Positions 283 to 54,011 of a stretch of DNA of 56,214 nt are shown piece by piece. Source of the stretch: an uncultured Clostridia bacterium (GTDB taxonomy: Bacteria > Bacillota > Clostridia > Christensenellales > Borkfalkiaceae); contig CALVWX010000011.1 in NCBI GenBank assembly GCA_944368215.1, positions 1 through 56,214 of the forward strand, in the 5' to 3' direction. How positions within the stretch are numbered: position 1 is the stretch's first letter; every line of letters begins with the position of its first letter. The notes beneath the pieces are model-generated. The model saw nothing but the letters and a program-made list of their open reading frames with translations, did no database searches and had not been told where the DNA came from. The position numbers and the translations under genes are program-made.

Positions 283-382
283 ATTATTGTCGCCTGTGTC
301 TTCAGACCCGCAGTGTAAAGATTGCGCATAATCCTTAATAAAATGTGTGCAATCCTCATTTAAAATTATAGAGGGAGAACTG

Positions 383-1276
383 ATGAAAAAATATGTAATA
401 GTAACCGATTCCTGTGCCGACCTCAACGCCGACCTGCGCAAAAAATACGATATCGAATATCTCTGCATGCGCGTTATCGAAGGAATCGTAGATAAACCTG
501 CAGACCTCGACTGGCAGTTTTTGTCCGCAAAAACCTTTTACGACAAAATGCGTCAGGGGGTGCGCTTCACCACGTCGCAGATAACGGCATCCGATTATGC
601 CGAAGCTTTCAAAAAATATGTCGAAGACGGGTGCGATGTCCTGTCAATCTCATGCTCGTCGGCGCTTTCAGGCTCATATAAGGCCAGCCTTGTCGCCCGC
701 GATGAAGTTCTCGCTTCCCATGACGGCGCAAAAATAATATGCATAGACCCTCTCAACGCCTGCATAGGCCTGGGACTGCTGTGCATCACCGCTTCAAAAC
801 TACGCGCGGAAGGCAAGAGTATTGAGGAGACTGCACAGTTTATAGAAAGCAACAAGCTGAAGATGAATCAGTTTGCCACGGCGGATGACCTTGTCTATCT
901 TAAGCGCGCCGGCAGAGTCGCGCCCACGAGCGCGTTTTTCGGCGGACTGTTAAAAATTAAACCCATAATCATATCCGACGCGCTCGGACAGAACGTCGCC
1001 GTTGAAAAAGTCAAGGGCAGGGGCCCGGCGATAAACAGACTTTTACAGCTCTTCAAGGAGCATTATAAGCCTTTTCCCTATCAGGCGATAGCCGTCGCCC
1101 ACGCCGATTGCCCCGCCGAAGCCGAAGAGCTCAGGGAAAAGATAATCGGGCTTCTGCCCGACAAAGATGTGGAAGTTTTCATCGACTACATAGGCCCGAT
1201 AGTTGGCGCAACCGTCGGTCCCGGCACGCTTGCCGTTTATTTTTACGGCGACGAAGTAACGTATAAGGCCTTATAA
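383..1276 (+). CDS. degV: DegV family fatty-acid-binding protein (FakB-like)
   Basis: DegV/FakB proteins bind one long-chain fatty acid and present it to the kinase FakA for phosphorylation, feeding phospholipid synthesis. The 297-residue product has the family N-terminus with TDSCADL at residues 7-13, the TTSQ stretch near 63, the SCSSALSGSY ligand-loop segment near 92, GLLKIKPII near 190 and a conserved C-terminal lobe; length is normal. I chose ATG 383 rather than ATG 347 because GAGGG at 371-375 sits at the right distance and the family starts with this KKYVIVTDS strand. Eleven bases downstream lies a PlsC-like acyltransferase, so the two probably act in acyl-chain activation and transfer. 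Which DegV paralogue or fatty-acid preference this is cannot be told. Confidence 0.93.
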   Translation: MKKYVIVTDSCADLNADLRKKYDIEYLCMRVIEGIVDKPADLDWQFLSAKTFYDKMRQGVRFTTSQITASDYAEAFKKYVEDGCDVLSISCSSALSGSYKASLVARDEVLASHDGAKIICIDPLNACIGLGLLCITASKLRAEGKSIEETAQFIESNKLKMNQFATADDLVYLKRAGRVAPTSAFFGGLLKIKPIIISDALGQNVAVEKVKGRGPAINRLLQLFKEHYKPFPYQAIAVAHADCPAEAEELREKIIGLLPDKDVEVFIDYIGPIVGATVGPGTLAVYFYGDEVTYKAL

Positions 1277-4949: not shown

Positions 4950-7892
4950 ATGTCTAAATTATTGGGTATCGACGTCGGATCTACGACCGTCAAGGTCGTC
5001 GCCATCGACGAAAATTTCAACATTCTTTATAAATCGTACGTCCGCCATTTCGCAAGGGTAAAGGAGACGGTGCTCTCCGAGCTCGAAAAAGTGCGCGCAA
5101 GCTTTCCCGGCGATTACAGCGTGTCCATAACGGGCAGCGCCGGCCTCGGACTTTCACAGCGCAGCGGCGTCAACTTCGTGCAGGAAGTACAGGCGGCATT
5201 TATCGCCATCCGCCGCTATTACCCCGATGCCGACGCGGCAATCGAACTCGGCGGCGAGGATGCCAAAATCATCTTTATCACGGGCGGCACCGAACAACGC
5301 ATGAACGGCAGCTGTGCGGGAGGCACGGGCGCGTTCATCGACCAGATGGCCACCCTTCTGAACGTCACGGTAGAGCAGATGGACGAGCTGGCTTTAAACG
5401 CCCGAAAAATTTATCCAATCGCCTCACGCTGCGGCGTGTTCGCCAAGTCCGATATTCAGCCGCTCATCAATCAGGGCGCCAGGAAGGAGGATATCTCTGC
5501 CTCAATCTTTCAGGCCGTCGTCGACCAGACGGTCTCAGGCCTCGCTCAGGGCAGGAGGATAAAGGGCAAAGTGCTCTTCCTCGGCGGGCCGCTGTACTTT
5601 TTAAAGGCGCTGCGCAAGGCCTTCCGCGATACTCTAAAGCTGGGCGACAACGCCATTTTCCCCGAAGACGCGCCCTGCTTCATGGCTATAGGCGCCGCGC
5701 TCAATTCCCAGTCCAACAAGCCCGAAAGTCTGTCGTCTGTCATTCAGAAGCTTTCAAACGTGCGCGACAGCGACGATATCGCCACTTCCGACCCGCTCTT
5801 TTCAAGCAAGGAGGAGTACGCTCAGTTCGTCGCGCGCCACCGCGCCACCGACCTCAAATTCTGCGATATCGCAACCTATTCGGGCGACGCCTACCTCGGC
5901 ATAGATTCGGGCTCCACCACAACAAAACTCATCTTAATCACGCCCGACTGCCGCATACTCTATTCGCACTACCAGTCCAACAACGGTCAGCCGCTCGATA
6001 TCGTAATAGATAAGCTCAAAGAAATTTATGTCCTCACGCAGGGCAGGGTAAAGATATGCGGCAGCGCCGTAACTGGCTACGGCGAAGACCTCATAAAGGC
6101 CGCCATAAAGGCCGATTTCGGCATTGTCGAAACGGTTGCGCACTTCAAGGCCGCCCTGCATTTCAATCCAAAGGTCGATTTCATAATCGATATCGGCGGG
6201 CAGGACATAAAGTGCTTCAAAATCAAAAACGGCGCCATCGATTCAATCATGCTCAACGAAGCTTGCTCCTCGGGCTGCGGCTCGTTCATTCAGACCTTCG
6301 CCCGCGCCATGGGAATGGAGATAGACAAATTCTCGCAGGAAGGTCTGTTCGCCAAACACCCCGTAGAGCTCGGTTCGCGCTGCACCGTCTTTATGAACAG
6401 CGCCGTAAAACAGGCGCAGAAGGAGGGAGCCGGCGTCCCCGATATCTCCGCAGGCCTTTCTTCGTCCATTGTCAAAAACGCCATTTACAAGGTCATCCGC
6501 GCGTCGTCTGCTGATGAACTCGGCGACAACATAGTCGTTCAGGGCGGCACGTTTTTAAACGACGCCGTCCTGCGCTCCTTCGAGAAGGAAGCGGGCAAAA
6601 ACGTCATTCGTCCCGGCATCGCGGGGCTGATGGGCGCCTTCGGCGCGGCTCTGTACGCCAAGGAAAATATTCAGGGGCAGAGCACTACGCTCGGCGAAGA
6701 GGAGCTTAAAGACTTTGCGTATAAGTCTATGTCCACCAACTGCCGCGGCTGTACCTCCAACTGCAATATCAACGTAATAACCTTCGGCGACGGAAGAAAA
6801 TACATATCGGGCAATAAGTGCGAACGCGGCGCAGGTTTAAAACCCGCCTCGACCGACCTCGACATCTACGCCTACAAACAGGAGCGCCTTTTAAAGTGCG
6901 TCTACGGGCAAAACGTCGGCAAGGGCAAGGCAAAAGTGGGGCTGCCCCTTCAGCTCGGTATGTACGAACAGCTTCCCGTCTGGGCGGGATTTTTCGAAAA
7001 ACTCGGCTTCGAAGTCGTCCTTTCGGAAAAATCTTCCCGTCAGCTCTATTTCAAGGGTCAGCATACAATTCCTTCGGATACGGCATGTTATCCCGCAAAA
7101 CTCATTCACGGCCATATCGAAAGCCTTCTGGACGATGGCGCGGACTTCATCTTCATGCCCTGCGAAAGTTACAACCTCGACGAGCACGATTCCGCAAATC
7201 ACTATAACTGCCCCGTCGTCGCATATTATCCCGAGCTTTTAAAGGCCAACAACGAGCGGCTCAACGATAAAAATTTCATCATGCCCTACCTCGATTTAAA
7301 CGAGGAGGACAACACCGTCAAAAAGCTTTACGCCCTCTTCAAAAAGTACGGCGTCTCCAAAAAACAGGTGCGCGCCGCCCTCAGCGAAGGCTTCTCCCGC
7401 CTCGAAAGCTACCAGACCGACGTCAGGAACAAGGGGGATGAGATACTCGAAAAGGCCACAAAGGCCGGCAAGCAGATAATCATTCTCGCGGGCAGGCCCT
7501 ACCACCTCGACAACGAAATCAACCACGGCATAAACAAGCTTTTAACCTCCCTCGGCATGGCTGTCCTCTCGGAAGACAGCGTCTTCGACAAGGGCAACTA
7601 CGTCAAAGTCAACGTGCTCAACCAGTGGACGTACCACGCGCGCCTCTATCGCGCGGCAGAGTTCGCCACACGCCACGACAACGTAAATTTAGTCCAGCTT
7701 GTGTCCTTCGGCTGCGGCATAGACGCAATCACAACCGACCAGCTCCGCGCCATTTTAGAAAAGGGAGGCAAGCTCTACACTCAGATTAAAATAGACGAAA
7801 TCAACAACCTCGGCGTAGTAAAAATACGCCTGCGCAGCATGCTCGCCGCCATTGAGGAAGGCAAGCGCAAAAAGGTGTCAGATGCAAGATAA
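4950..7892 (+). CDS. Acyl-CoA dehydratase activase-like protein, two tandem BcrA/BadF/HgdC ATPase domains plus DUF2229-type region
   Basis: Members of this family use ATP hydrolysis and a shared [4Fe-4S] cluster to drive low-potential electron transfer. In this large form the physiological acceptor is not established. The 980 residues hold domain 1 (about 4-250: GIDVGSTTVK, cluster cysteines C122 in GSCAGGTG and C161 in SRCGVF), domain 2 (about 317-565: GIDSGSTTTK, C439 and C478 in SRCTVF), a CxxCxxxC motif (C598, C601, C605) that may bind another cluster, then a DUF2229/HgdB-like region to the end. In many Clostridia one polypeptide of about 1,400 residues also includes the downstream gene; here it is split, with an 11-bp overlap. 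The start ATG 4950 lacks a Shine-Dalgarno, but GIDVGS must lie at the N-terminus. Confidence 0.9.
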   Translation: MSKLLGIDVGSTTVKVVAIDENFNILYKSYVRHFARVKETVLSELEKVRASFPGDYSVSITGSAGLGLSQRSGVNFVQEVQAAFIAIRRYYPDADAAIELGGEDAKIIFITGGTEQRMNGSCAGGTGAFIDQMATLLNVTVEQMDELALNARKIYPIASRCGVFAKSDIQPLINQGARKEDISASIFQAVVDQTVSGLAQGRRIKGKVLFLGGPLYFLKALRKAFRDTLKLGDNAIFPEDAPCFMAIGAALNSQSNKPESLSSVIQKLSNVRDSDDIATSDPLFSSKEEYAQFVARHRATDLKFCDIATYSGDAYLGIDSGSTTTKLILITPDCRILYSHYQSNNGQPLDIVIDKLKEIYVLTQGRVKICGSAVTGYGEDLIKAAIKADFGIVETVAHFKAALHFNPKVDFIIDIGGQDIKCFKIKNGAIDSIMLNEACSSGCGSFIQTFARAMGMEIDKFSQEGLFAKHPVELGSRCTVFMNSAVKQAQKEGAGVPDISAGLSSSIVKNAIYKVIRASSADELGDNIVVQGGTFLNDAVLRSFEKEAGKNVIRPGIAGLMGAFGAALYAKENIQGQSTTLGEEELKDFAYKSMSTNCRGCTSNCNINVITFGDGRKYISGNKCERGAGLKPASTDLDIYAYKQERLLKCVYGQNVGKGKAKVGLPLQLGMYEQLPVWAGFFEKLGFEVVLSEKSSRQLYFKGQHTIPSDTACYPAKLIHGHIESLLDDGADFIFMPCESYNLDEHDSANHYNCPVVAYYPELLKANNERLNDKNFIMPYLDLNEEDNTVKKLYALFKKYGVSKKQVRAALSEGFSRLESYQTDVRNKGDEILEKATKAGKQIIILAGRPYHLDNEINHGINKLLTSLGMAVLSEDSVFDKGNYVKVNVLNQWTYHARLYRAAEFATRHDNVNLVQLVSFGCGIDAITTDQLRAILEKGGKLYTQIKIDEINNLGVVKIRLRSMLAAIEEGKRKKVSDAR

Positions 7893-9156
7893 AATTACCG
7901 TAGATTACACCGACGATTACCCCCGCTGGAAGGATGAGTACAAAAGCACTTATAAAATACTCATCCCCGATATGCTCCCGTGGCATTTCGCCATAATAGA
8001 GCAGCTTTTAAAGATGGAGGGGTACGACGTCGAAGTATTAAAGAACGATTCCCGCGCCGTCATAGACGAAGGCTTGAAGCGCGTGCACAATGACACGTGC
8101 TATCCCTGCCTGTGCGTCGTCGGCCAGTATATCGACGCGTTGAAGAGCGGCAAGTACGACGTAAACCACACCGCCGTGCTCATTTCCCAGTCGGGCGGCG
8201 GTTGCCGCGCCTCCAACTATATCCCCTTAATCCGCAAGGCGTTAAAGGCGCAGTTTCCCAACGTGCCCGTTATTTCTTTAAACTTTTCGGGGCTCGAAAA
8301 AGACTCGTCCTTCAAAATAGGTTTAAAGCTTTTGTTAAAGCTCGCCTTCGCAATTTTCTATGGCGACAGCATCATGTGGTGCTATAACCAGACCCGTCCT
8401 TACGAGGAGCAGGCGGGTGCGGCGGATAAAGCCCGCAAGGAGGCCATGGATGCGGTAATCGGGGCATATAAGGCGGGCAATTACTATAAGTATAAAAAAA
8501 TCAACGCAAAAATAATATCCATTTTTGCCTCCGTAAAGCGCAAAAACGTAAAAAAAGTAAAGGTCGGCATCGTCGGCGAAATTTACGTAAAGTACGCCTA
8601 CCTCGGCAACAACCACCTCGAAGATTTTCTTCTCTCCGAGGACTGCGAACCCGTCGTCCCCGCCCTCATGGACTTCGTGCTGTATTGCATAGTCAATAAC
8701 ATCAACGATTCCGATTTTTACGGCAAAAAGGGCATTTTCTACACCGCCAACCGCATACTCTACCGCGTGCTTTACCGCATGCAGAAAAATATCATCAAAC
8801 AGTATAAAAAGGAGGGCACCTTCGAACCCATTCACGATTTCGAACACCTCCGCAAATGCGCCGATAAGGTCATAAATCAGGGCGTAAAGATGGGCGAAGG
8901 CTGGCTCATTCCCGCCGAAATGGCCGCCCTTGCGGAGACGGGGACCGAAAATATCGTCTGTGCCCAGCCCTTCGGCTGCCTGCCCAACCACATTGCGGGC
9001 AAGGGCGCAATCCGTACACTCAAGAATATGTACGAGCACGAAAATATCGTCGCCGTCGACTACGACCCTTCGGCTACAAAGGTCAATCAGGAAAACCGCA
9101 TAAAGCTCATGCTCGCCACCGCGAGAGAAAATTTAGCACAAACAAAAGACAACTGA
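7882..9156 (+). CDS. HgdB-like C-terminal partner of the split activase protein
   Basis: 424-residue protein corresponding to the C-terminal part of the large activase/2-hydroxyacyl-CoA dehydratase-like proteins. Likely cluster or substrate cysteines are C73, C76 and C78 in NDTCYPCLC and C108 in SGGGCRASNY. ATG 7882 is used rather than the earlier in-frame codon at 7852, because it opens the conserved region directly after the upstream gene's AAAAAGGTG and produces an 11-bp overlap with the upstream stop, a typical translational-coupling arrangement. It presumably forms a stable complex with the 980-residue protein. Function in this organism is unknown; a role in a radical dehydration or low-potential reduction is an inference from family. 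Confidence 0.85.
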   Translation: MQDKITVDYTDDYPRWKDEYKSTYKILIPDMLPWHFAIIEQLLKMEGYDVEVLKNDSRAVIDEGLKRVHNDTCYPCLCVVGQYIDALKSGKYDVNHTAVLISQSGGGCRASNYIPLIRKALKAQFPNVPVISLNFSGLEKDSSFKIGLKLLLKLAFAIFYGDSIMWCYNQTRPYEEQAGAADKARKEAMDAVIGAYKAGNYYKYKKINAKIISIFASVKRKNVKKVKVGIVGEIYVKYAYLGNNHLEDFLLSEDCEPVVPALMDFVLYCIVNNINDSDFYGKKGIFYTANRILYRVLYRMQKNIIKQYKKEGTFEPIHDFEHLRKCADKVINQGVKMGEGWLIPAEMAALAETGTENIVCAQPFGCLPNHIAGKGAIRTLKNMYEHENIVAVDYDPSATKVNQENRIKLMLATARENLAQTKDN

Positions 9157-18692: not shown

Positions 18693-18706
18693 GTTGATTA
18701 ATCAAC
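18693..18706. promoter_or_regulatory. Palindromic operator, start-site copy
   Basis: Second exact copy of GTTGATTAATCAAC, 8 nt after the -10 box and covering the probable transcription start. Its centre is 59 bp from the first copy. Confidence 0.78.
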
Positions 18707-18768
18707 TATGCCCGTGCTCAGAAATGTGCGGATTAAACAGTTTAAAATTTTTATTAAAAGGAGAATAT

Positions 18769-20019
18769 ATGGTTAAAGCTCAAACCAAAAAGCGCATATG
18801 GTTGCGCGTGCTATGCATAGTGCTCGCCGCAATCGTGCTTATCGCCGCAGCGCTCGGCATCACCGTATGCTGCATCTGGGGCAACGAAATTTCTACAGTC
18901 GCAAGCTTCACCCACCTGCGCGGCCGCAACGACGAAAATGAAGAAGGTTCCGTATACCGCATGGACGTAAAGGGAGGGTTCTATTTCGACGATTACCTCG
19001 CCTCCGGCGGCGCGTCCGGCGATTCCGAACTCATCAGCTTCATCACCGACCACATTACCCGCGGCCTCATCGACATGACCATAAAGGAAACGGATATCGG
19101 CTGTTCGGCCTTTATCGCAAAGACGCCTTCGGGCGATGTGCTCTTCGGCCGCAATTACGATTTCGATAAAACCAACGTCTGCCTCACTCTCTGCAACCCC
19201 GGCGACGGCCGCCATGCGTCCTTCTCCACGGTAGACCTCAACTACGTCGGCATGGATATAAATAAGGATGTAGAGGGCCTCATGAACAAAATAACCTGCC
19301 TCGCCGCGCCCTATGCGCCCCTCGACGGCATAAACGACGCGGGCGTAAGCTGCGGCATATTCATGTCTTATCAGGGCAACGAAACGGTAGCAACCAACCA
19401 GCAGGACGCCGAAAAGGATAACATTACCTCTACGACAATGCTCCGCATGATACTCGACTACGCCGACGACGTGGACGAAGCCGTAGAGCTCGTCCGCAAT
19501 TACAATCTTCACGACTCGGCCAATACGTCTTTCCACTATATGATAGCCGACGCATCGGGCCGCAGCGCGATTTTGGAGTGGGTGCCCGCCTCGGGCGTGA
19601 CCGACACGACAGATAACGACGGCACTGCCCGTACGCTCAACGTCATCTACAACGACGACCCCATATACGACGAAGTCCGCGCTCAGTCTGCCTTTAAATA
19701 TCAGGCCATAACCAATTTCATAATTACCCCCGGTTATTATGAAGATGCTGAAGCGGAAGGCCCCGGCTACGACCGCTATACGTATATCAACTCGGAGCTC
19801 GCCAAAGTTGACGGCGTCGTCGCTGACGAAGAGGCAGCAATGGATATTTTGCAGGCAGTCGGCAGAAGAACGTGGAACGGTGGAGGGGGCGTGACCGTCC
19901 ACAGCGCCGTTTACAATCTCACACAAAAGACGGTCTACTGGGTCGCCAATGAAAACTACGGCGATTCCACGGCCACATGGCACTATTCGTTCGGAACGGG
20001 CGAACTCACCCAAGGTTAA
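18769..20019 (+). CDS. Membrane-anchored Ntn-type amidase (choloylglycine hydrolase / acyl-CoA:6-APA acyltransferase-like)
   Basis: 416 residues. An N-terminal basic stretch and hydrophobic helix (about 10-36) anchor the protein outside the membrane. The conserved segment GCSAFIAKTPSGDVLFGRNYDFD (about 111-133) is the Ntn nucleophile region of linear-amide C-N hydrolases: candidate nucleophile C112 and the RNYD motif. Family members cut amide bonds of bile-acid conjugates, penicillin V, N-acyl homoserine lactones or N-acyl amino acids; this one could act on any N-acyl amide. Unlike classic enzymes, the Cys is far inside, so cleavage before C112 or a non-autoprocessed form is possible. ATG 18769 has AAAAGGAG; the TTG at 18694 lies inside the operator and is rejected. 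The gene precedes the lysoplasmalogenase module in the same direction. Confidence 0.82.
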   Translation: MVKAQTKKRIWLRVLCIVLAAIVLIAAALGITVCCIWGNEISTVASFTHLRGRNDENEEGSVYRMDVKGGFYFDDYLASGGASGDSELISFITDHITRGLIDMTIKETDIGCSAFIAKTPSGDVLFGRNYDFDKTNVCLTLCNPGDGRHASFSTVDLNYVGMDINKDVEGLMNKITCLAAPYAPLDGINDAGVSCGIFMSYQGNETVATNQQDAEKDNITSTTMLRMILDYADDVDEAVELVRNYNLHDSANTSFHYMIADASGRSAILEWVPASGVTDTTDNDGTARTLNVIYNDDPIYDEVRAQSAFKYQAITNFIITPGYYEDAEAEGPGYDRYTYINSELAKVDGVVADEEAAMDILQAVGRRTWNGGGGVTVHSAVYNLTQKTVYWVANENYGDSTATWHYSFGTGELTQG

Positions 20020-20033
20020 ACAAATGTAATTTT

Positions 20034-20059
20034 GCGGCGGCGTATTGACGCGCCGCCGC
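20034..20059 (+). terminator. Possible terminator or attenuator hairpin between amidase and lysoplasmalogenase-ADH genes
   Basis: GCGGCGGCG (20034-20042) pairs with CGCCGCCGC (20051-20059), followed by TTTGCGTTT. The U tract is short, so readthrough into the next genes is possible. A TATAAT at 20073-20078 without a well-spaced -35 may be an additional promoter. Confidence 0.55.
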
Positions 20060-20115
20060 TTTGCGTTTACAATATAATTACAAAACTGCCTTAAATATCC
20101 GGCTAAGGAGGTAAC

Positions 20116-22005
20116 ATGAACAAAAAAACAGCTGTCTGGTCGGGCGTATATTTCATATTGCTCGCCGCCGCGGCCGCAGTATACATTGTCGTCAACACCG
20201 ACGCATTGAAAGCCGTGGCAAGCTCGGTCTTTGCCGTAGGCGGAATAATCAATCTCGTCATAGCCCTGCGCTGTAAAGCAAAAGGCTATCCCGCAAGCAA
20301 ATATCTTCTGGTCGTCGCGGCTATTTTTTGCCTCGCGGGGGATATCGGCCTGTGCTATAATTTCATAGCCGGAATGGCGCTGTTCGCTGTGGGACACATA
20401 GCTTATATCGCCGCCTTCCGCACGATAAACATGGTCGGCTGGCGCACCGTCGGCACTTCCGCATTGCTCATCGTCGGCGCGCTTTTGTGGCTTTTATTGT
20501 GGCCCGCATACGACTTCGGCGACCTCACCCCCGCAATAATAATCTACGCCGTCGTCATCTGTTGCATGCTCGGCAGCGCGATAGGCGTCGCGCTCGACGG
20601 CGCGGTCAATAAAAAACTGCGCTTTTGCATATACCTCGGCGCAAGCCTGTTCTATATCTCCGATCTCTTCCTCACCATAAGAATGTTTGCGGGCGGAGGA
20701 AGGGGTTATTCGGTTGCCTGTCTCGTCACCTATTACCTCGCGCAATACCTGCTCACAATGTGCGTGCTTCTCTCCGCGCAGAGCGGCGAAAGCAGGGTAA
20801 AACCCCGCATGAATGTATTCAAACGCCTCTTCTGCCGAGCATATCAGGCAGTTTTCTATCTCGCCCTGCCTCTTTTGCCCTATCGCCAGCCCAAACCCCT
20901 CGGCGGCAGCGGCGAGGCGGCCGAACTGCTCTCGTCAAAGGGCAAGCGCAAGGCGCTTATCGTAACCGACTCCACCGTCTATAAGCTCGGATTATGCGAC
21001 AATCTCGTCTCCACGCTCAGGAATCAAGGTATAGATTGCGCAATTTATTCGGATACCGTCGCCAATCCCACTGTCTCCAACGTTACGGCGGCGGCAGATT
21101 TGTTCAGAAAAGAGGGGTGCGATTGTTTAATCGCCGTCGGCGGCGGCTCCGCCATGGACTGCGCCAAGGCGGCGGGCGCGCTCATAATCAAACCCAAAAA
21201 ATCCATATATAAAATGCGCGGCGTATTAAAGGTCTTCGGCAAGCTTCCGCTGTTCATAGCAGTGCCCACAACGGCTGGAACGGGCAGCGAAACGACTATC
21301 GCCGCCGTTATCACAGACGACAAAACGCGCGATAAATTTACAATAATTTCCTTCTGTCTCGCGCCGCACTATGCCATACTCGACCCTGCAATGACAATCG
21401 GCCTGCCGCCCTCGGTCACGGCCACCACGGGTATGGACGCATTGACCCACGCCGTCGAAGCTTACATAGGCAGGTCAACCACACGTATGACGCGCCGCCT
21501 CGCGGTGGAGGCGGTCAGTATAATACGCGCCAACCTGTTGACGGCCTATACCGACGGCAAAAATCAATATGCCCGCCGCCGCATGCAGTACGCCGCATAT
21601 TGCGCGGGACTGGCTTTCACCATTTCATACGTCGGTTACGTTCATGCCGTCGCCCACTCGCTGGGCGGAAAATACAACACTCCCCACGGCCTTGCGAACG
21701 CCGTAATTCTTCCATACGTATTAAAGCGCTACGGCGTGTCCGCGCGCAAGCGCCTCGCAATGCTTTCCCGCAAAAGCGGTGTGTCCGACGCAATGACCGA
21801 CGACCAAACTGCCGCAGAACAGTTCATCGCTTTCGTCGAAGAACTCAATGCAAAGATGAACATTCCTGCAAAACTGCGCGTAGAGGAGGGCGACATTGCC
21901 GAACTTTCCCGCCACGCAGATAAGGAGGCAAATCCTCTTTATCCCGTGCCCGCGCTAATGGACGCCAAGCACATTCAGGCAATCTATAACGATATAAAGG
22001 AGTGA
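20116..22005 (+). CDS. Lysoplasmalogenase (YhhN/TMEM86) - iron-containing alcohol dehydrogenase fusion
   Basis: 629 residues in two parts. Residues 1-230 are a polytopic YhhN/TMEM86 domain: LAGD (D76) followed by the GMALFAVGHIAYIAAF segment, GASLFYISD (D183) and a final YYLAQYLL helix. The 107-residue spacing of D76 and D183 fits the two Asp residues reported essential in lysoplasmalogenases, which split the vinyl-ether bond of lysoplasmalogen to a fatty aldehyde. Residues about 255-629 are a full Fe-dependent alcohol dehydrogenase: GGGSAMDCAK (340-349), PTTAGTGSE, and metal ligands D441, H445, H510 and H524. ATG 20116 has AAGGAGGTAAC. The ALDH gene starts 4 nt after the stop. The reading frame is continuous with no frameshift sign. 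Coupling of aldehyde release to reduction is inferred. Confidence 0.88.
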   Translation: MNKKTAVWSGVYFILLAAAAAVYIVVNTDALKAVASSVFAVGGIINLVIALRCKAKGYPASKYLLVVAAIFCLAGDIGLCYNFIAGMALFAVGHIAYIAAFRTINMVGWRTVGTSALLIVGALLWLLLWPAYDFGDLTPAIIIYAVVICCMLGSAIGVALDGAVNKKLRFCIYLGASLFYISDLFLTIRMFAGGGRGYSVACLVTYYLAQYLLTMCVLLSAQSGESRVKPRMNVFKRLFCRAYQAVFYLALPLLPYRQPKPLGGSGEAAELLSSKGKRKALIVTDSTVYKLGLCDNLVSTLRNQGIDCAIYSDTVANPTVSNVTAAADLFRKEGCDCLIAVGGGSAMDCAKAAGALIIKPKKSIYKMRGVLKVFGKLPLFIAVPTTAGTGSETTIAAVITDDKTRDKFTIISFCLAPHYAILDPAMTIGLPPSVTATTGMDALTHAVEAYIGRSTTRMTRRLAVEAVSIIRANLLTAYTDGKNQYARRRMQYAAYCAGLAFTISYVGYVHAVAHSLGGKYNTPHGLANAVILPYVLKRYGVSARKRLAMLSRKSGVSDAMTDDQTAAEQFIAFVEELNAKMNIPAKLRVEEGDIAELSRHADKEANPLYPVPALMDAKHIQAIYNDIKE

Positions 22006-22009
22006 CAAA

Positions 22010-23371
22010 ATGCAACAGCTATTAGATAAACAAAGGGCTTATTTTTCAACTGGCGAAACGCTCGGCATAAGGGGCAGAATAGCCGCATTAAAGAGGCTTC
22101 GTTCAAGCATATATGCGCACGAACAGCAAATTTATGAAGCGCTCAAAAGCGATCTGGGTAAGAGCTGTACCGAAAGTTATATGAGCGAAGTGGGCATGAC
22201 TTTGTCGGAAATTAATTTTATGATAAAGCACATTAAAAACTATGCGCGCGACAGGCGCGTAAAAACGCCCCTCGCCCAGTATATCGCCAAAAGCTACGTC
22301 AAAAGTTCGCCCTACGGCTGTGTGCTCGTCATGAGTCCGTGGAACTATCCCTTCATGCTCTCATTGGAGCCGCTCGTAGACGCAATCGCCGCAGGCAACA
22401 CGGTAATTTTAAAGCCTTCTGCTTACTCGCCCGCGACTAGCGAAGTGCTCGCCGCGGTAGTTAAGGAAGCTTTTCCGCCCGAGCTTGCAACCACCGTCCT
22501 CGGCGGCAGAGCGGAAAATTCCGCCCTCCTTGACATGCCGTTCGATAAAATTTTCTTCACGGGTTCTGTCGCCGTCGGCAAGGAAGTAATGCGCCATGCG
22601 GCAGAAAAACTCATCCCCATAACATTAGAACTTGGCGGCAAAAGCCCCTGTATAGTCGATAAATCCGCCAATATTCCAGTTGCGGCAAAGCGCATCGTCT
22701 TCGGGAAGTTTTTGAACTGCGGCCAGACCTGCGTCGCGCCCGATTATATCCTCGTCCACTCCTCGGTAAAGGGTAAGCTGATTTCCTGTATAAAGTCAGA
22801 AATTTCCAAACAGTTCGGCGAGTACCCCCTCGAAAATGCGGCTTACGGAAAAATTATTTCCAAAAAACATTACGAAAGAATATGTTCTTTAATCGACGAT
22901 AAAAAAGTTGTAGTCGGCGGACAGAGGGATGACAATACTCTCCGCATTGCACCCACTGTGATGGACGGAGTGACGCGCGACGACGCCGTCATGGGCGAAG
23001 AAATTTTCGGCCCCGTTCTTCCAGTAATGACTTACGATAAAATCGCGGACGTGATAGACGATGTCAACGCCCATCCGCACCCCCTCGCGCTGTATGTTTT
23101 TGCAGATAAAAAAACGGCGGAGGAGGTTACAACCCGTTGTCTGTTCGGCGGCGGTTGCGTAAACGATACCATCATTCACCTCGCCACTTCGGCAATGGGT
23201 TTCGGCGGCGTCGGTGCAAGCGGTATGGGTGCCTATCACGGCAAGGCCGGATTCGATTGCTTCACCCATAAAAAATCCATAGTCGACAAAGCGACATTCT
23301 TCGATATGCCCGTGCGCTATCAGCCTTATACGTCGTTCAAATCAAAACTCATTAAATTTTTTATGAAATAA
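22010..23371 (+). CDS. Class-3-type fatty aldehyde dehydrogenase
   Basis: NAD(P)-dependent oxidation of aldehydes to carboxylic acids; 453 residues, the length of ALDH3 enzymes. The catalytic Cys is C241 in NCGQTCVAPDY and the general base is E207 in LELGGKSP, spaced as in ALDH3A1 (34 residues). MSPWNYPFMLSLEPL, the NTVILKPSAYSPATS cofactor segment and GSVAVGKEV are all present. The C-terminus ends in a hydrophobic-basic helix (SKLIKFFMK) that could help membrane association, as in fatty aldehyde dehydrogenases. Start ATG 22010 is 4 nt after the fusion gene stop, with AAAGGAG lying across that stop, so translation is coupled. It probably removes the long-chain aldehyde made by the upstream domain. 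Confidence 0.92.
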   Translation: MQQLLDKQRAYFSTGETLGIRGRIAALKRLRSSIYAHEQQIYEALKSDLGKSCTESYMSEVGMTLSEINFMIKHIKNYARDRRVKTPLAQYIAKSYVKSSPYGCVLVMSPWNYPFMLSLEPLVDAIAAGNTVILKPSAYSPATSEVLAAVVKEAFPPELATTVLGGRAENSALLDMPFDKIFFTGSVAVGKEVMRHAAEKLIPITLELGGKSPCIVDKSANIPVAAKRIVFGKFLNCGQTCVAPDYILVHSSVKGKLISCIKSEISKQFGEYPLENAAYGKIISKKHYERICSLIDDKKVVVGGQRDDNTLRIAPTVMDGVTRDDAVMGEEIFGPVLPVMTYDKIADVIDDVNAHPHPLALYVFADKKTAEEVTTRCLFGGGCVNDTIIHLATSAMGFGGVGASGMGAYHGKAGFDCFTHKKSIVDKATFFDMPVRYQPYTSFKSKLIKFFMK

Positions 23372-23522: not shown

Positions 23523-23623
23523 ACGAAATCATTTTTCTCCATGCATATACCGTTTACGCCACCGTAAATCGTATAGTAGCCCATCAGGTATGCGCCCCGC
23601 TCAGGCGGGGCGCATATATTTTT
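23523..23623 (+). ncRNA. Candidate structured small RNA of about 100 nt
   Basis: Between a promoter (23488-23516) and an intrinsic terminator there is no ORF but two hairpins. Hairpin 1 is a 13-position stem (23546-23558 with 23563-23575) closed by a CCAC loop, with one mismatch and one G-U pair. Hairpin 2 is the terminator, ATGCGCCCCGC (23590-23600) with GCGGGGCGCAT (23605-23615), loop TCAG, tail ATATTTTTA. It does not match an RNA family I can name. It could be a free sRNA, or an attenuated leader, since the MocR gene begins 78 nt after the terminator; but mocR has its own promoter. Confidence 0.5.
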
Positions 23624-23700: not shown

Positions 23701-25059
23701 ATGCTTACTTACGATCTCGGCTCCAAAAACAAATATTACTCGCTCTATTGCTGCATCCGCGACGACATTCTGCGCGGCAATTTAAAGTGCGGAGACAAAC
23801 TTCCCTCGAAGCGCGCTTTAGCTTTCAATCTCTCCGTCAGCGTAATAACCGTGCAGACGGCATATGAACAGCTTCTCGCCGAAGGCTACATAATTTCAAG
23901 GGAACGCAGCGGCTACTTTGTCGCAGACGTTCAGGGGGCAATGGGTGAAGGCCGTCCTGCGCAAGTACCCCAAAGGAAAGAGAGTAAAAATTTTGCCGCT
24001 GACCTCGTTTCAGGCTCGCCACCGGCAGAACTTTTCCCTTTTTCCGTGTGGGCGCGCCTTATGCGCACCGTCCTCTCTGATGAAGGCGAACACCTTCTCG
24101 AGCGCGTGCCCTGCAGGGGCGATATAACTTTGCGCCGCGAAATTTCGGCCTGCCTCTACCGCATGCGCGGCGTATCTGTCGATCCCGAATGCATAGTTGT
24201 CGGCGCGGGCGCGGAATACCTCTACGGCATAATCGTACAGCTCGTAGGTCGCGACAAACTCTTCGCCGTCGAAAATCCCGGTTACGGCAAAATTTATTCA
24301 ACCTACAGTCTGTACGGGGCGAAGTGCGTCCCCGTCTCCGTGCGCAATATCGGCGCGGATCCCGTCGAAGTTGAGCGTTCAGATGCGCATATCCTGCATA
24401 TTTCGCCATCCCACCAGTTCCCCACGGGCGCAGTAATGCCCGCTGCGAACAGGGCGCGCATCATAAGATGGGCGCGCGCGACAAACGCATACATAGTTGA
24501 GGACGATTACGACAGCGAATTCCGTCTCGTCGGCAAACCCCTCCAGTCTATGCTCGGGCTGTGCCCCGACAGAGTAATATATATAAATACTTTTTCAAAG
24601 TCGCTCGCTCCGTCAATGCGCATGGGCTACATGGTGCTTCCGTCCGAGCTCTGCGCGCGCTTTTTAAAGCTTTTTTCCGCAAGCGCCAACGTCGTGCCGC
24701 TCTTCGAGCAAAAGGCTCTCGCCTTAATGATAGGGGGAGGGTACTTCGAACGCCACATAAACCGCCTCAAAAATTATTTCCGCACCGTCCGTCAGGAAGT
24801 GATTCAGGCAATTTCCGCCCTGCCGTTTGCCTCGCGCATAAACGATACGGGCAGCGGTCTGCACATGACCGTCAGGTTTCCCGACGCTCTATCCGATGAG
24901 CAGATTAAAAAAATTGCGCGGGAGCGCGGGTTAAACGTCCGCTGTTTGAGCGATTATTTAATAGCGCCTCTTTCTGACTACGAAAAAGTGGCCGTAATCA
25001 ATTACGGCGGCTTAAAAAAGGGTGTTGCCGAGAATATTGCCTCCTTGTTCCATAAATGA
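23701..25059 (+). CDS. MocR-family transcription regulator (GntR wHTH + aminotransferase fold)
   Basis: 452 residues. The N-terminal GntR winged helix (about 10-78: GDKLPSKRALAFNLSVSVITVQTAYEQLLAEGYI) binds DNA. After a linker, an aminotransferase class I domain (about 110-450) binds PLP as effector: the EDDYDSEFR block, and the Schiff-base Lys in NTFSKSLAPSMRMGY. MocR proteins such as PdxR and GabR usually control PLP synthesis or amine metabolism genes next to them. Here the neighbours are the lysoplasmalogenase-ADH/ALDH operon upstream and an XRE membrane regulator downstream, so the target is uncertain. The -10 box is 6 nt from ATG, implying a leaderless, probably autoregulated mRNA. Confidence 0.92.
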   Translation: MLTYDLGSKNKYYSLYCCIRDDILRGNLKCGDKLPSKRALAFNLSVSVITVQTAYEQLLAEGYIISRERSGYFVADVQGAMGEGRPAQVPQRKESKNFAADLVSGSPPAELFPFSVWARLMRTVLSDEGEHLLERVPCRGDITLRREISACLYRMRGVSVDPECIVVGAGAEYLYGIIVQLVGRDKLFAVENPGYGKIYSTYSLYGAKCVPVSVRNIGADPVEVERSDAHILHISPSHQFPTGAVMPAANRARIIRWARATNAYIVEDDYDSEFRLVGKPLQSMLGLCPDRVIYINTFSKSLAPSMRMGYMVLPSELCARFLKLFSASANVVPLFEQKALALMIGGGYFERHINRLKNYFRTVRQEVIQAISALPFASRINDTGSGLHMTVRFPDALSDEQIKKIARERGLNVRCLSDYLIAPLSDYEKVAVINYGGLKKGVAENIASLFHK

Positions 25060-36624: not shown

Positions 36625-37463
36625 TAAAGCACCTCCTTGCGGCAGCGCATGCAGTGGCACTGAATATTTATCGCCACGGGCAGGCCTGCAATGTGCGTGG
36701 GCGCCCATTCGCAATTTACGCCCAGCGCCGTTATATTGCCGTGAAATCCCTGACAGCCGATATTCAGGGCGTTTATTTTTTCATATGCGCGCCTTTCTAT
36801 TTTGGCTATATCGTCGCGCGCGTTGTGCGTTCCCAAATCGCGCGCAAGCGCTTTTTTTGCAAGATAGGTGCACGTATCGAAACTTCCGCCTATGCCGACG
36901 CCTGCAATAACGGGAGGGCAGGGGCGCGAACCTGCAATCTTTACCGTCTCGACTATGGCGTCCACAATGCCGTCCACGCCCTGTGCGGGCTTAAGCATGT
37001 AAATGCGGCTCATGTTTTCGCTGCCGAATCCCTTGGGCATGTAGGTAATATGTATCTTGTCTCCCGGCACTATAGTGGTGTGCAGAACGGCGGGGGTGTT
37101 GTCGCCCGTGTTTTTTCTCGTCACGGGGTCGCACACCGATTTTCTGAAGTAGCCGTCTTTATAGGCTCTGCGCACGGCGTCGTTTACGGCGTCTCCCAAA
37201 AATTTGCCTTCAAGCACGACTTCCTGACCTATATCCATCATTACGACGGCCATTCCCGTGTCCTGACATACGGGCATCTTTTCCCTTTCGGCCAGTTCAA
37301 AGTTTTCGCACAGCGCGCCCAAAGCGAACTTCGCCGCGCCTTCGCTCTCTTCGTCCCTCGCCGCATACAGCGCCGCCTTGCAGCTGTCTGTAAGGCTGAC
37401 GCCCGCGTCAAGGGCCATTTTATAAATCACGCTTTCAATTTCTTGAGTATCGATCTTTCTCAT
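36624..37463 (-). CDS. fumA: Fumarate hydratase class I, alpha subunit
   Basis: 279-residue [4Fe-4S] subunit. Conserved cysteines for the cluster are in PVCQDTGMAVV (about 65), SRPCPPVIAGVGIGGSFD (about 185) and NIGCQGFHGN (about 240); TTIVPGDKIHITYMPKGFGSENMS and the C-terminal HIAGLPVAINIQCHC also fit. The class I two-chain form is typical of strict anaerobes. The promoter (TTTACA, 17 nt, TAAAAT) ends 7 nt before the ATG and there is no Shine-Dalgarno, suggesting a leaderless mRNA. It could serve a reductive TCA branch toward succinate. Confidence 0.95.
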   Translation of the reverse strand: MRKIDTQEIESVIYKMALDAGVSLTDSCKAALYAARDEESEGAAKFALGALCENFELAEREKMPVCQDTGMAVVMMDIGQEVVLEGKFLGDAVNDAVRRAYKDGYFRKSVCDPVTRKNTGDNTPAVLHTTIVPGDKIHITYMPKGFGSENMSRIYMLKPAQGVDGIVDAIVETVKIAGSRPCPPVIAGVGIGGSFDTCTYLAKKALARDLGTHNARDDIAKIERRAYEKINALNIGCQGFHGNITALGVNCEWAPTHIAGLPVAINIQCHCMRCRKEVL

Positions 37464-37470
37464 AAGCAGA

Positions 37471-37499
37471 ATTTTAGTACATTTTTTATCAAATGTAAA
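37471..37499 (-). promoter_or_regulatory. Promoter of fumAB, leaderless type
   Basis: Minus strand TTTACA (37499-37494), 17-nt spacer, TAAAAT (37476-37471). ATG 37463 begins 7 nt after the -10 box. Confidence 0.65.
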
Positions 37500-37507
37500 T
37501 CAAATAA

Positions 37508-37536
37508 TTTACTAAAATTCCGATTTAGTGTATAAT
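37508..37536 (+). promoter_or_regulatory. Promoter of CPBP protease-rlmH, leaderless type
   Basis: TTTACT (37508-37513), 17-nt spacer, TATAAT (37531-37536). ATG 37544 begins 7 nt later. It is back-to-back with the fumAB promoter in an 80-bp gap. Confidence 0.72.
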
Positions 37537-45341: not shown

Positions 45342-45401
45342 ATTTGCGTATTGTAAAAACGGCGGACTATAAATATCCTTCCGCCGGCGGAGATTTTGTT
45401 A

Positions 45402-47597
45402 ATGAAAAGTAAATTGCTCGTCTGCACAGCGCTTGCTGCTGCGCTCACAATGTCTGTCGTTTTCTCTTCGGGTTGCGCCACGAGAAACGAGGAGGACATG
45501 AATCAGGTAATCGCCACCGTAGATATCACAAAGAGCGAAAATCTCGAAAGCGAGGGCCTTTCCGCATATTCCTCGGCAATCAGCTCGGAAAAGAACATCC
45601 TCAAAAGGGATCTCATGGCTTCCTTCTACAACGTAGGTTATTCCTATGTGCAGAACGGTTCAACCTATTCCGAAGTTTTCAACATGCTCGTCGACGCGCT
45701 GACAAGCACGGCAGTCGTAACGCAGTATGCAACCTTAAGCCTCATAAAGGATAAGAGCGCAGATAACTCGTCATTCCTCGACGAGTACCTTTCAAAGACT
45801 ACCGAAGTAGAAAAATACGAATACCTCCTCGAAGGAGAAACGAGCACCAATGACGACGGAAGCGAGGGTTACAGCCGCATTCTCGCCGCGCGTTATTCTC
45901 TCTATTCGAGCATCAACTCTTCGATAGATTCTCTCGAACAGTCCATTCTCGATGAAAAGGACGACAGCTCGTCGTCCGACGAAACCCGTTCTACCCCGGG
46001 CGGAGCGGGTGAGGAGAAGGAGGATTATATTCCCCTCAACGCCGACGGCACCCTCGATTACGGCATTTACACAGGCTACGAAGGAGACGGGTATTCATAT
46101 CTTATCGAAGACAGCGGCGCCTATGAAGACGACATGCTCGAAGGCTCCACGAGGACGACCCGCCGCAGGGCTTATGCGTCCTTTGTCACCAACCTCCGCG
46201 ACAATTTCCTCATCTCCGATGACGACGACGTCCGCGACGTTCTCTCCGTATCCTACATTCAGGACGAATACCTGTCGCAACTTCAGCAGCAGGTAATAAA
46301 CGAATATTACGAACGCTACCAGGCCGCTCAGGAAGCTCTGATAGAAAATGTCGAAGACGGCGTTTATACCTTCCTCGCCGCAAGATACCAAAGCGATTTC
46401 ACCGACCAGCAACAGTCCAACTCTACGTATACCGCGTTTGAAACTTCCATGAGTTCGCTTTCGGACACATCCTTCATTCTTTATGCGCCCTCAACCGACG
46501 GCACGGACGGCGGAACTTACGGCTATGTTTACAACATTCTGCTTCCCTTCGACGCGGCACAGAACGTAAATATCGATACCTCCGATACTTCCGCGGAATA
46601 CTACTTCATGAGGAAGGACATTCTCGACGATATCACCACTACCGACCAGCGTGCGGCATGGTTCAACGGACAGACCGATTATTCTTTCGACGCGAACGAG
46701 GCCGGTCTCGACTATTACGGCAAAGATAGCGGCAGAAATTATCTTTTCTTCGAAGATAATCTCACGAGAACTGACAGGTATCAGTCTCTCGACAAATATG
46801 ACGGCCGTTATTCCTACAACGGCGCCGTCACCGAAAATGCCGACGGTTCATACAGTCTTTCCCCCAATAAGCTCGATATCGATCAGATGCTCGACGAGTT
46901 TACAAATTATGTAAATTATGTCCTCGGCACAACAGATTCTGTGACCATCACGCATAACGACAGATACGACGTCGAAAAAGCCGAAGATTATTACGAGCTG
47001 GATGAAGACGGCAACGCCGACGAGAGCAAAATCGATTATTCCCGTTTCGTCTATGCCTCGGGCAAAGTCGACCTCGGTTATGATTTCGCTAACGATAATA
47101 CGGCGCTCTCGTCCTACCTTACAAATCTGTTCAATAAGGACAGCGCTGCTTACAAGGCTCTCAGCGCGGTGAACGAACTTCAGTATGCTTACACTACGGA
47201 TACGTCCGTTCTTTCGCAGTATGTCGGTTATTCCGTCTCCGCGTTCGAAACAAGCTACGTTCCCGAATTCGAATACGCTGCCCAGGCTGCCGTAAACGAA
47301 GGCCCCGGCTCCGTATATGTCTGCGCGGCAGACTACGGCTGGCACATTATATACGTAACGGCAACCTTCCCCACCGACGGTTCGCCCGTATACGGCGATA
47401 ATGTGCAGTGGACGGAAGAATATGTCCTCAAGGAAGGCACATTCCAGAATCTTTATTACAACTGGGTGAAAGACAGCACTCTCACTGACATAACGACAAA
47501 CCGCCGTTCGATAATCAACCAGCTCTTCGGCGGAGATGCAACCATAACCAAGTACGAAGATACCTACAGCGATCTCCTCGCTCTCGACGAAGAGTAA
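45402..47597 (+). CDS. Large PrsA/SurA-like lipoprotein with degenerate parvulin region
   Basis: 731 residues. It has a signal peptide with a lipobox-like SSGC (C25), an N-terminal SurA/PrsA-type helical segment (about 50-130: SYVQNGSTYSEVFNMLVDALTS), a long acidic Ser/Asp/Tyr-rich middle, and near the C-terminus YGWHIIYVTATF, which matches the last strand of parvulin PPIases. Extracytoplasmic folding helper is the likely role. PrsA-type lipoproteins of about 300 residues often follow mfd in Firmicutes; this one is more than twice as long and the parvulin core is hard to recognise, so PPIase activity may be lost. GGCGGAG precedes ATG 45402; TTG 45396 is less likely. uppP is 18 bp downstream. 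Confidence 0.75.
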   Translation: MKSKLLVCTALAAALTMSVVFSSGCATRNEEDMNQVIATVDITKSENLESEGLSAYSSAISSEKNILKRDLMASFYNVGYSYVQNGSTYSEVFNMLVDALTSTAVVTQYATLSLIKDKSADNSSFLDEYLSKTTEVEKYEYLLEGETSTNDDGSEGYSRILAARYSLYSSINSSIDSLEQSILDEKDDSSSSDETRSTPGGAGEEKEDYIPLNADGTLDYGIYTGYEGDGYSYLIEDSGAYEDDMLEGSTRTTRRRAYASFVTNLRDNFLISDDDDVRDVLSVSYIQDEYLSQLQQQVINEYYERYQAAQEALIENVEDGVYTFLAARYQSDFTDQQQSNSTYTAFETSMSSLSDTSFILYAPSTDGTDGGTYGYVYNILLPFDAAQNVNIDTSDTSAEYYFMRKDILDDITTTDQRAAWFNGQTDYSFDANEAGLDYYGKDSGRNYLFFEDNLTRTDRYQSLDKYDGRYSYNGAVTENADGSYSLSPNKLDIDQMLDEFTNYVNYVLGTTDSVTITHNDRYDVEKAEDYYELDEDGNADESKIDYSRFVYASGKVDLGYDFANDNTALSSYLTNLFNKDSAAYKALSAVNELQYAYTTDTSVLSQYVGYSVSAFETSYVPEFEYAAQAAVNEGPGSVYVCAADYGWHIIYVTATFPTDGSPVYGDNVQWTEEYVLKEGTFQNLYYNWVKDSTLTDITTNRRSIINQLFGGDATITKYEDTYSDLLALDEE

Positions 47598-50955: not shown

Positions 50956-51025
50956 TTGCGCAGCAACATGAAAAGCGACAGACAACAAATGTTGTCCGTC
51001 GCTGAAAATTCATGTTACTGCGCAA
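50956..51025. repeat. Palindromic repeat, copy 2 (complete)
   Basis: 70-bp near-perfect palindrome. TTGCGCAGCAACATGAA (50956-50972) pairs with TTCATGTTACTGCGCAA (51009-51025), with the nested 14-bp AGCGACAGACAACA stem inside. It starts directly after the 3' end of the SRP RNA on the minus strand and may contribute to its termination. Confidence 0.87.
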
Positions 51026-51030
51026 CCCTT

Positions 51031-51283
51031 TTTGCCCGCAAAGGCCGAAGCGTAAACCGTACAGGTAGCTCCGACAAAGCAACCTTATGGCACACCGTCG
51101 GGACTGTTTAGTGCTGCTATATCCCTATCCTGACACGGTTCGCAGTTGACGGTTGCATAAGACCTTGTAATCAACACCCCTTATACGGCGCGGCCTTCCA
51201 CCTCGGCGGTCGGGAAGGGTATTCAGTCCTGCTGTAGCGGATTGCAGGTACAGGGCACCGCTATCTCCCCACTTAGCGCAGCT
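51031..51283 (-). ncRNA. ffs: Signal recognition particle RNA, large Firmicutes type
   Basis: Scaffold RNA of SRP. On the minus strand the 5' Alu domain GGTGCCCTGTACCTGCAATCC (plus 51259-51239) and the following CAGGACTGAATACCC are present. The domain IV hairpin is GTCAGG (plus 51134-51129), GGGA, then AGCAGC (plus 51118-51113), the Ffh-binding signature. Length of about 250 nt fits the scRNA type of Bacillus and Clostridia. Ends are estimated: start 7 nt from the -10 box, 3' end in the GGGCAAAAAGG region. Confidence 0.9.
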
Positions 51284-52241: not shown

Positions 52242-52288
52242 ATTAAAAGGCGCCGACCGCATTTTCATGCGGTCGGCGCCTTTTAATT
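52241..52288. terminator. Bidirectional terminator between apbC and the InlB-repeat lipoprotein
   Basis: Perfect 21-bp stem, 52241-52261 with 52268-52288, loop TTTTCA. A/T ends serve both strands. The stem overlaps the stop codons of both convergent genes. Confidence 0.92.
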
Positions 52289-53933: not shown

Positions 53934-53950
53934 ATTTTTCCTCCGCGATA

Positions 53951-53969
53951 AGTACAAATATCTTGTACT
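53951..53969. promoter_or_regulatory. Dyad operator O1 of lipoprotein/XRE intergenic region
   Basis: AGTACAA-N5-TTGTACT, a perfect inverted repeat lying just downstream of the lipoprotein transcription start. It is paired with O2 at 53981. Confidence 0.78.
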
Positions 53970-53978
53970 TTTTACTAT

Positions 53979-54007
53979 ATTATACAAATACCTTGTACTT
54001 TTGTAAA
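53979..54007 (-). promoter_or_regulatory. Promoter of InlB-repeat lipoprotein
   Basis: Minus strand TTTACA (54007-54002), 17-nt spacer, TATAAT (53984-53979). Operator O2 lies exactly across the spacer, so bound regulator would exclude RNA polymerase. Confidence 0.78.
53981..53999. promoter_or_regulatory. Dyad operator O2 of lipoprotein/XRE intergenic region
   Basis: TATACAA-N5-TTGTACT, the same TACAA-N5-TTGTA dyad as O1. The centres are 30 bp apart, close to three helical turns, placing both on the same face of the DNA. Confidence 0.78.
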
Positions 54008-54011
54008 GTGA

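Follow-up and report, generated by a model that had tools for sequence, protein, structure and literature searches.

What could bring a membrane domain of the lysoplasmalogenase family, an alcohol dehydrogenase and an aldehyde dehydrogenase together at one locus? The question is raised by a 56,214-nucleotide (nt) stretch of DNA, hereafter the window (contig CALVWX010000011.1 of GenBank assembly GCA_944368215.1), from an uncultured Clostridia bacterium of the family Borkfalkiaceae. There, a single open reading frame (ORF) encodes a YhhN (TMEM86) domain followed by a complete iron-dependent alcohol dehydrogenase (Fe-ADH, hereafter ADH), and the ORF of a class-3 aldehyde dehydrogenase (ALDH) begins after a gap of 4 nt (Table 1). 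A preliminary description of this DNA had proposed a self-contained module for vinyl-ether lipid turnover. We find that the three families are repeatedly joined, and we consider it probable that the module is a membrane-bound relay recovering vinyl-ether chains as fatty acids in hosts without fatty acid synthesis, with fatty alcohols perhaps recovered too.

Recurrence of the YhhN–ADH–ALDH association

Both ORFs proved to be what the preliminary description had taken them for, down to the ADH metal ligands and the catalytic ALDH residues (Table 1). In the fusion protein, profile matches place YhhN (PF07947) at residues 47–215 (E 1.9e-27; 96.6 bits against a curated cut-off of 25.6) and a full Fe-ADH at residues 267–626, i.e., PF00465 at 267–424 (E 5e-45) and ADH_Fe_C (PF25137) at 435–626 (E 3e-45), while the ALDH matches Aldedh (PF00171, E 3e-91), all of these above the curated cut-offs. 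The Fe-ADH fold, the D/H/H/H metal ligands and a GGGS nucleotide motif are all present. No NCBIfam equivalog reached its cut-off for the fusion or the ALDH protein, the best scores being 300.5/523 bits for lactaldehyde reductase and 431.9/550 bits for benzaldehyde dehydrogenase MdlD. The ALDH ribosome-binding site lies directly before the stop codon of the fusion, which suggests translational coupling.

We then evaluated how widely this architecture occurs. Across 301 genomes of the family, 59 carried the ADH subfamily of the window and 22, the window's included, a YhhN–ADH fusion. The 59 family loci fetched (from 58 other genomes, one of which has a second, cut locus) comprised 22 fusions, 10 of them YhhN–ADH–ALDH, along with 8 ADH–ALDH doubles, 19 loci with separate neighboring ADH and ALDH genes, 9 with an ADH but no ALDH in the available stretch, and 1 broken locus; L094 was left unclassified for its broken ADH frame. 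A 1,210-amino-acid (aa) frame at L064 was considered as a possible new N-terminal domain and rejected: YhhN was not matched in its first part, and the frame looks like an ADH–ALDH double lengthened by chance. A second set of 52 loci (genome_contigs) was retrieved with a YhhN alignment of 22 fused proteins (A1), hence with a bias toward fused YhhN, and included 30 fusions (16 triple), 9 unfused YhhN adjoining ADH and/or ALDH, and 13 YhhN alone; at one of the 9 (L176), a weaker-scoring ADH lies ~2 kb from YhhN. At L171, ADH, ALDH and YhhN are three overlapping genes. As a side observation, L163 has two YhhN genes at one ADH–ALDH pair, one in line and one divergent.

Searched across the order, YhhN was matched in 202 of 396 genomes, with long frames also beyond the window's family. 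Forty order loci were fetched, 20 of them chosen for long frames or family, so that the shares are non-random: 5 were fused, 5 linked (at L220 and L221 in the order [ADH][ALDH][YhhN]), 6 had YhhN of the same clade unlinked, 21 had other YhhN and 3 no profile match. Fused-type YhhN was therefore fused or linked in 10/16 of these loci, versus 0/21 for other YhhN. Fusions also occurred in two further families of the order; an 882-aa frame in G395 (L219) had no match to the search profiles and was not counted. Since the three locus sets overlap, we counted distinct proteins: besides the window's, there are 37 fusions, 17 of which hold YhhN, ADH and ALDH in one chain of ~1,090 aa when complete, several being cut by contig ends. 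Where the preliminary description had asked for synteny with an ALDH, we thus observe triple fusions in some relatives and neighboring genes in others. Repeated fusion, triple fusions and gene neighborhood, a combination that no single assembly could produce, support a functional link among the three families.

The architecture has changed repeatedly. In a tree of 62 YhhN sequences, fused and unfused proteins are intermixed, with 7 changes, at least 4 of which are forced by well-supported branches, and a single clade of fused YhhN is rejected (approximately unbiased test, p 3.4e-23). The ADH tree (70 rows, quick method) needs 14 changes for four architectures, and the closest ADHs to that of the window, L044 and L045, lack YhhN. 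On these trees, gains and losses of fusion would look alike. Separately, in both trees a triple fusion (L145/L218) from genome G610 of another family (f32) is nested among fusions of family f1, pointing to either lateral transfer or mixed assemblies.

Catalytic residues, topology and known relatives

Mutagenesis of TMEM86A/B addressed K43, G81, D82, H104, G182, S189, D190 and Y213 (TMEM86A numbering), and all except the first glycine are reported as crucial for activity (Kummer et al., PMC11994398). Assigned by order, identity and spacing, all eight have counterparts in the window's YhhN (K32, G75, D76, H94, G175, S182, D183 and Y206), the last four at spacing identical to that of TMEM86A. The aspartates D76 and D183, which the preliminary description had singled out, are therefore part of a full and conserved set: the eight residues are invariant in 27 sequences (alignment A2) and occur together in 60/63 proteins of the fused-type YhhN clade, the exceptions being L043, L161 (truncated) and L171. 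The dehydrogenase sites are equally well kept, with the four ADH metal ligands present in 70/70 aligned sequences and ALDH C241 and E207 in 61/61. ADH residue D285 occupies what we take to be the NAD-selecting position of FucO (NAD, nicotinamide adenine dinucleotide).

An AlphaFold2 model of the fusion (mf070c62be581; mean predicted local distance difference test score 89.8, predicted template modeling score (pTM) 0.78) contains 8 membrane-type helices and an Fe-ADH fold. Together with the charge distribution, it predicts eight transmembrane (TM) helices with both termini inside (N-in/C-in), as is likewise predicted for MtbYhhN (PMC9052158). The basic amphipathic stretch between membrane domain and ADH is modeled as a helix at residues 234–253 and has no acidic counterweight to its basic residues (mean K+R 3.26, D+E 0.00 in 27 sequences); a comparable stretch opens the ADH in 40 ADHs without YhhN. 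Re-alignment of the fusion model to PDB structures spans mainly the ADH part, and in a structure alignment the ADH shares 28% identity with 9ldl_A.

Among PDB sequence matches, the 11 best for the ALDH (E 5e-135 to 5e-93) include 6k0z, 1ad3 (‘class 3’), 4qgk (fatty ALDH, E 6e-110) and 5ucd (benzaldehyde dehydrogenase), followed by a steroid aldehyde dehydrogenase (2e-70) and matches of 1e-47 or weaker. Judged by these matches, the protein appears closest to ALDH3 enzymes, supporting its designation as class 3.

The human pathway likewise leads from a lysoplasmalogenase (TMEM86A/B) to a class-3 fatty aldehyde dehydrogenase, ALDH3A2, but there the enzymes are separate proteins and no Fe-ADH is involved, whereas in the window they are fused or adjoining and include one. 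ALDH3A2 and fatty aldehydes are treated in PMC11608845. With the YhhN/TMEM86 lysoplasmalogenases (human TMEM86A/B and those of Legionella and M. tuberculosis), the window's YhhN shares the Pfam family, the eight residues, eight TM helices and N-in/C-in topology; however, those enzymes are, as far as the available accounts go, single-domain proteins of ~200–260 aa, while here the chain continues into an Fe-ADH and, in relatives, onward into a class-3 ALDH. In a published coupled YhhN assay, yeast ADH was added to consume the aldehyde and thereby report the reaction (PMC9052158); by analogy, the fused ADH may be its natural equivalent.

AdhE is likewise an Fe-ADH/ALDH fusion, but it runs from ALDH to ADH, and its ALDH is near the acetylating acetaldehyde dehydrogenases (PMC12454647), whereas the present order is membrane domain, ADH, class-3 ALDH. 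BdhE (Konno et al. 2025, PMC12454647) is described as an independent ALDH/ADH fusion of former neighbor genes for which channeling was proposed; it too has the ALDH–ADH order, the reverse of that seen here, and involves other subfamilies. Membership of the window module in AdhE or BdhE is thus ruled out by domain order and ALDH class. For the reversed ADH–ALDH order, Konno et al. recorded only five InterPro proteins, and we found no description of them there. We found no report of a YhhN–ADH fusion in a library of open-licence papers. All the parts are members of known families; what is new, as far as we know, is how they are combined, how often this recurs and the salvage setting. The triple fusions, like the synthesis genes and the apparent fatty-acid auxotrophy treated below, go beyond the preliminary description.

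These observations matter in several respects. Little has been described of how bacteria break plasmalogens down, and the presence of YhhN proteins in many bacteria that have no genes for plasmalogen synthesis has been a puzzle (PMC9052158). Recurrent fusion to enzymes that would use the aldehyde supports, independently and from evolution, the assignment of YhhN as a lysoplasmalogenase. It also outlines a specific path by which vinyl-ether lipid could yield fatty acid, connects the cleavage of plasmalogens with the fatty-acid auxotrophy apparent in uncultured gut Clostridia, and adds to AdhE and BdhE a fusion order, ADH–ALDH, of which there are few records.

A probable salvage relay and its alternatives

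The route that we infer, i.e., the activities, cofactor, chain length, ADH direction, salvage role and any channeling, would run as follows. YhhN would hydrolyze the vinyl ether of a lysoplasmalogen, yielding glycerophospho-ethanolamine or -choline and, within the membrane, a toxic long-chain aldehyde. The ADH, as an NAD-type fatty aldehyde/alcohol dehydrogenase on the cytosolic C-terminus of YhhN, would convert aldehyde to alcohol or fatty alcohol to aldehyde, and the ALDH would oxidize aldehyde to fatty acid with formation of NADH, such that NAD could be balanced within the unit (2 aldehyde to acid plus alcohol). The fatty acid would then be passed to FakA/FakB for activation, and the DegV/FakB-type protein encoded in the window might be its acceptor. 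Chains could come from the cell's own plasmalogens, where PlsA/R is present, or from vinyl-ether lipids of the host and neighbors.

Chain salvage is a likely purpose because the hosts seem to lack fatty acid synthesis and have FakA. The window's own genome (91.8% complete, which limits this negative) gave no FabF, ketoacyl-synthase N-domain or FabH match; among 14 control genomes, FabF was matched in 13, the N-domain in all 14 and FabH in 10. A FakA-type kinase is encoded in the window's genome, outside the window. FakA was matched in all 17 carriers checked, FabH in none and FabF in only one, G610, where the score is below the curated cut-off; in four further genomes, whose YhhN belongs to the fused-type clade but is unlinked, FakA was matched in all four and FabF and FabH in none. 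A FakA-type kinase was thus present in 21/21 genomes checked. Family-wide, a ketoacyl synthase was found in 36/301 genomes (35 of genus g10, one of g2) and in 0/59 genomes with the window-type ADH. The carriers thus look like fatty-acid auxotrophs, by lineage and not by module. Open-licence papers yielded nothing useful on Coproplasma plasmalogens or on fatty-acid auxotrophy in gut Clostridia.

A more far-reaching version remains tentative, and we hold it somewhat less likely to be right than wrong: a tethered three-enzyme relay, repeatedly fused and in its full form a single protein of ~1,090 aa, dedicated to plasmalogen salvage that is redox-neutral and sets no aldehyde free, through which gut Clostridia that lack fatty acid synthesis would subsist on the vinyl-ether chains of host and neighbors.

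Several observations weigh against the salvage relay. Ketoacyl-synthase loss is nearly family-wide (265/301 genomes without a match) and therefore does not single out module carriers, and the negatives themselves have limits: in the FabH search, 2/5 comparison genomes also gave no match (3/5 matched) and only 10 of the 14 controls were recovered, and the window's genome is incomplete. No glycerophosphodiester phosphodiesterase for the headgroup product was found in that genome. Helix order in the model would place D76 (helix 3) and D183 (helix 7) in the outer half of their respective helices, not on the side of the cytosolic ADH, which makes direct hand-over of the aldehyde less than obvious. 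The model of the triple fusion (pTM 0.45) is too poor for its geometry to be judged. The nearest solved relatives of the ADH act on small alcohols and aldehydes, no long-chain enzyme was recognized among its PDB matches, and nothing points to long-chain specificity of this enzyme. Finally, YhhN and ADH often occur apart: 31/59 genomes with the window-type ADH have no YhhN, and 33/61 YhhN genomes have no window-type ADH. The ADH/ALDH pair must therefore draw on a further source of aldehyde or alcohol as well; intake of fatty alcohols by the ADH would explain why it is kept without YhhN.

The alternative that survives best, although we regard it as unlikely, is closed endogenous turnover, in which the module would degrade only the cell's own PlsA/R-made plasmalogens and dispose of the aldehyde. 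Candidates for the plasmalogen synthesis genes that the preliminary description had suggested seeking in this genome are found in the window itself, as a PlsA/PlsR-like pair 11 kb upstream of the fusion. The PlsA-like protein is 49.2% identical over 99% to a Listeria monocytogenes protein, and the PlsR-like protein 40% identical to a match in the same Listeria records that directly adjoins the PlsA match; Listeria is named as holding plsA/plsR orthologues (Goldfine review, PMC9702350). These identities resemble the 48–55% and 41–42% published for enterococcal or streptococcal enzymes compared with those of C. perfringens (PMC12838417). The pair is also colinear with single-ORF homologues (48–50% and 38–44% identity), and its length of 4,207 bp compares with 4,199–4,287 bp for C. 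perfringens clones. By architecture and colinearity, we therefore take it to be a probable PlsA/PlsR plasmalogen synthase, while noting that PlsA/PlsR homologues in some strains yielded no plasmalogen (PMC12838417).

Beyond the window, G122, G134 and G297 also have PlsA/PlsR on one contig with the module or its ADH (an unfused ADH in G297); in other genomes, e.g., G164, G154 and G149, the two lie on separate contigs. PF09989 is commoner in genomes with the window-type ADH (54/59 versus 117/242 others) and in fused genomes (19/22 versus 152/279 others), in keeping with endogenous turnover; however, this association is clustered by genus, and we therefore do not treat it as independent evidence. 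PlsA is present in G610, but had no match in 9/9 fused or linked genomes of family f28 (97–100% complete), nor in 3/22 fused genomes of the window's family, i.e., G242 (72% complete), G255 (92%) and G277 (93%). Taken together, the self-contained turnover of the preliminary description is possible at this locus, given the PlsA/PlsR-like genes in the same window, but does not hold as a general account of the module.

Somewhat less probable again is that YhhN serves mainly as an anchor, or as a separate enzyme that detoxifies lysolipids, while the ADH and ALDH act on other aldehydes or alcohols, such as short-chain compounds or dietary fatty alcohols. The frequent absence of YhhN from ADH genomes, the ADH–ALDH doubles without YhhN (8/59 loci) and the small substrates of the solved ADH relatives would all fit this explanation; yet the critical YhhN residues are retained, fusion or adjacency to these ADH and ALDH families recurs in the fused-type YhhN clade and was not seen for the other YhhN of the order sample, and the ADH, having an amphipathic N-terminal stretch of its own, may do without YhhN as an anchor.

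We give very little weight to a role in ether-lipid synthesis, with ADH and ALDH tuning the fatty aldehyde pool for plasmalogens: bacteria are reported to have used long-chain aldehydes, and not alcohols, for plasmalogens, but the same review favors direct reduction of the diacyl lipid by PlsA/R (PMC9702350), the characterized YhhN activity is hydrolytic (PMC9052158), and the f28 carriers have no PlsA match. Lastly, an assembly or sequencing artefact that fused two genes, the frameshift that the preliminary description had allowed for, is ruled out by recurrence: the carriers seen do include metagenome-assembled genomes and no named isolate, but the 37 further fusions come from independent assemblies in several families.

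Other features of the window

The module is preceded by a strong ribosome-binding site and a promoter-like site and followed by a terminator-like hairpin (Table 1), although neither of the last two kinds of signal is in clear excess across the window (8 promoter-like sites versus 5.8, standard deviation 2.3, in shuffled sequence; 8 hairpins versus 7.6).

Table 1 Coordinates of the module and associated features in the window.
Feature	Position	Strand	Details	Basis
DegV/FakB-type protein gene	347..1276	+	PF02645, E 4.7e-62	Pfam
PlsA-like plasmalogen synthase subunit	4950..7892	+	980 aa; two BcrAD_BadFG stretches and DUF2229	
PlsR-like subunit	7852..9156	+	Mechanical start; ATG at 7882 likelier	Listeria match and colinearity
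C45/choloylglycine-hydrolase-like N-terminal nucleophile (Ntn) hydrolase	18694..20019	+	Hydrophobic N-terminus; likely start ATG 18769	
Promoter-like site before fusion	20045..20073	+	TTGACG-17-TACAAT	Consensus match only
Ribosome-binding site of fusion	20105-20111	+	AAGGAGG (strong), ahead of fusion ORF	Sequence
YhhN–Fe-ADH fusion protein	20116..22005	+	629 aa	ORF, Pfam and AlphaFold2 model
YhhN (TMEM86/lysoplasmalogenase) domain	20254..20760	+	K32 just ahead of this stretch	PF07947
Basic amphipathic stretch	20800..20874	+	Residues 229-253; joins membrane domain to ADH	Alignment and model
Fe-ADH domain	20914..21993	+	Ligands D441, H445, H510, H524	
Ribosome-binding site of ALDH	21997..22002	+	AAGGAG, just 5' of fusion stop codon	Sequence
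Class-3 (ALDH3-type) aldehyde dehydrogenase	22010..23371	+	453 aa; C241, E207	Pfam, PDB matches, alignment
Terminator-like hairpin 3' of ALDH	23588..23617	+	13-pair stem, then T run	

The C45/CBAH-like hydrolase gene adjoins the module in 9/59 family loci and 9/52 genome_contigs loci, overlapping sets with some contig-end cuts. It lies just 5' of the module at L044, L045, L048, L054, L059, L060, L067, L083 and L093. Its product may be a lipid or amide deacylase, conceivably one acting at sn-2, and a source of lyso-lipid or amide-bound chains. On the 3' side of the ALDH, a PdxR-type MocR regulator (window positions 23701-25059) is found, as it is beside the ADH/ALDH pair at L044, L048 and L049.

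ADHs on Photobacterium and Pseudoalteromonas plasmids are 45% and 39% identical to that of the window; no YhhN or ALDH of the module families was found beside them, and 0/1,922 matching plasmid records cover ≥80% of the fusion. Elsewhere in the window, two ORFs of 733 aa (45396-47597) and 293 aa (36654-37535) have no Pfam match, a low-G+C stretch (38.5%; 52287-54095, minus strand) holds a surface-type protein with Listeria-Bacteroides repeats, and a bacterial large signal recognition particle RNA lies at 51018-51281 on the minus strand (180 bits).

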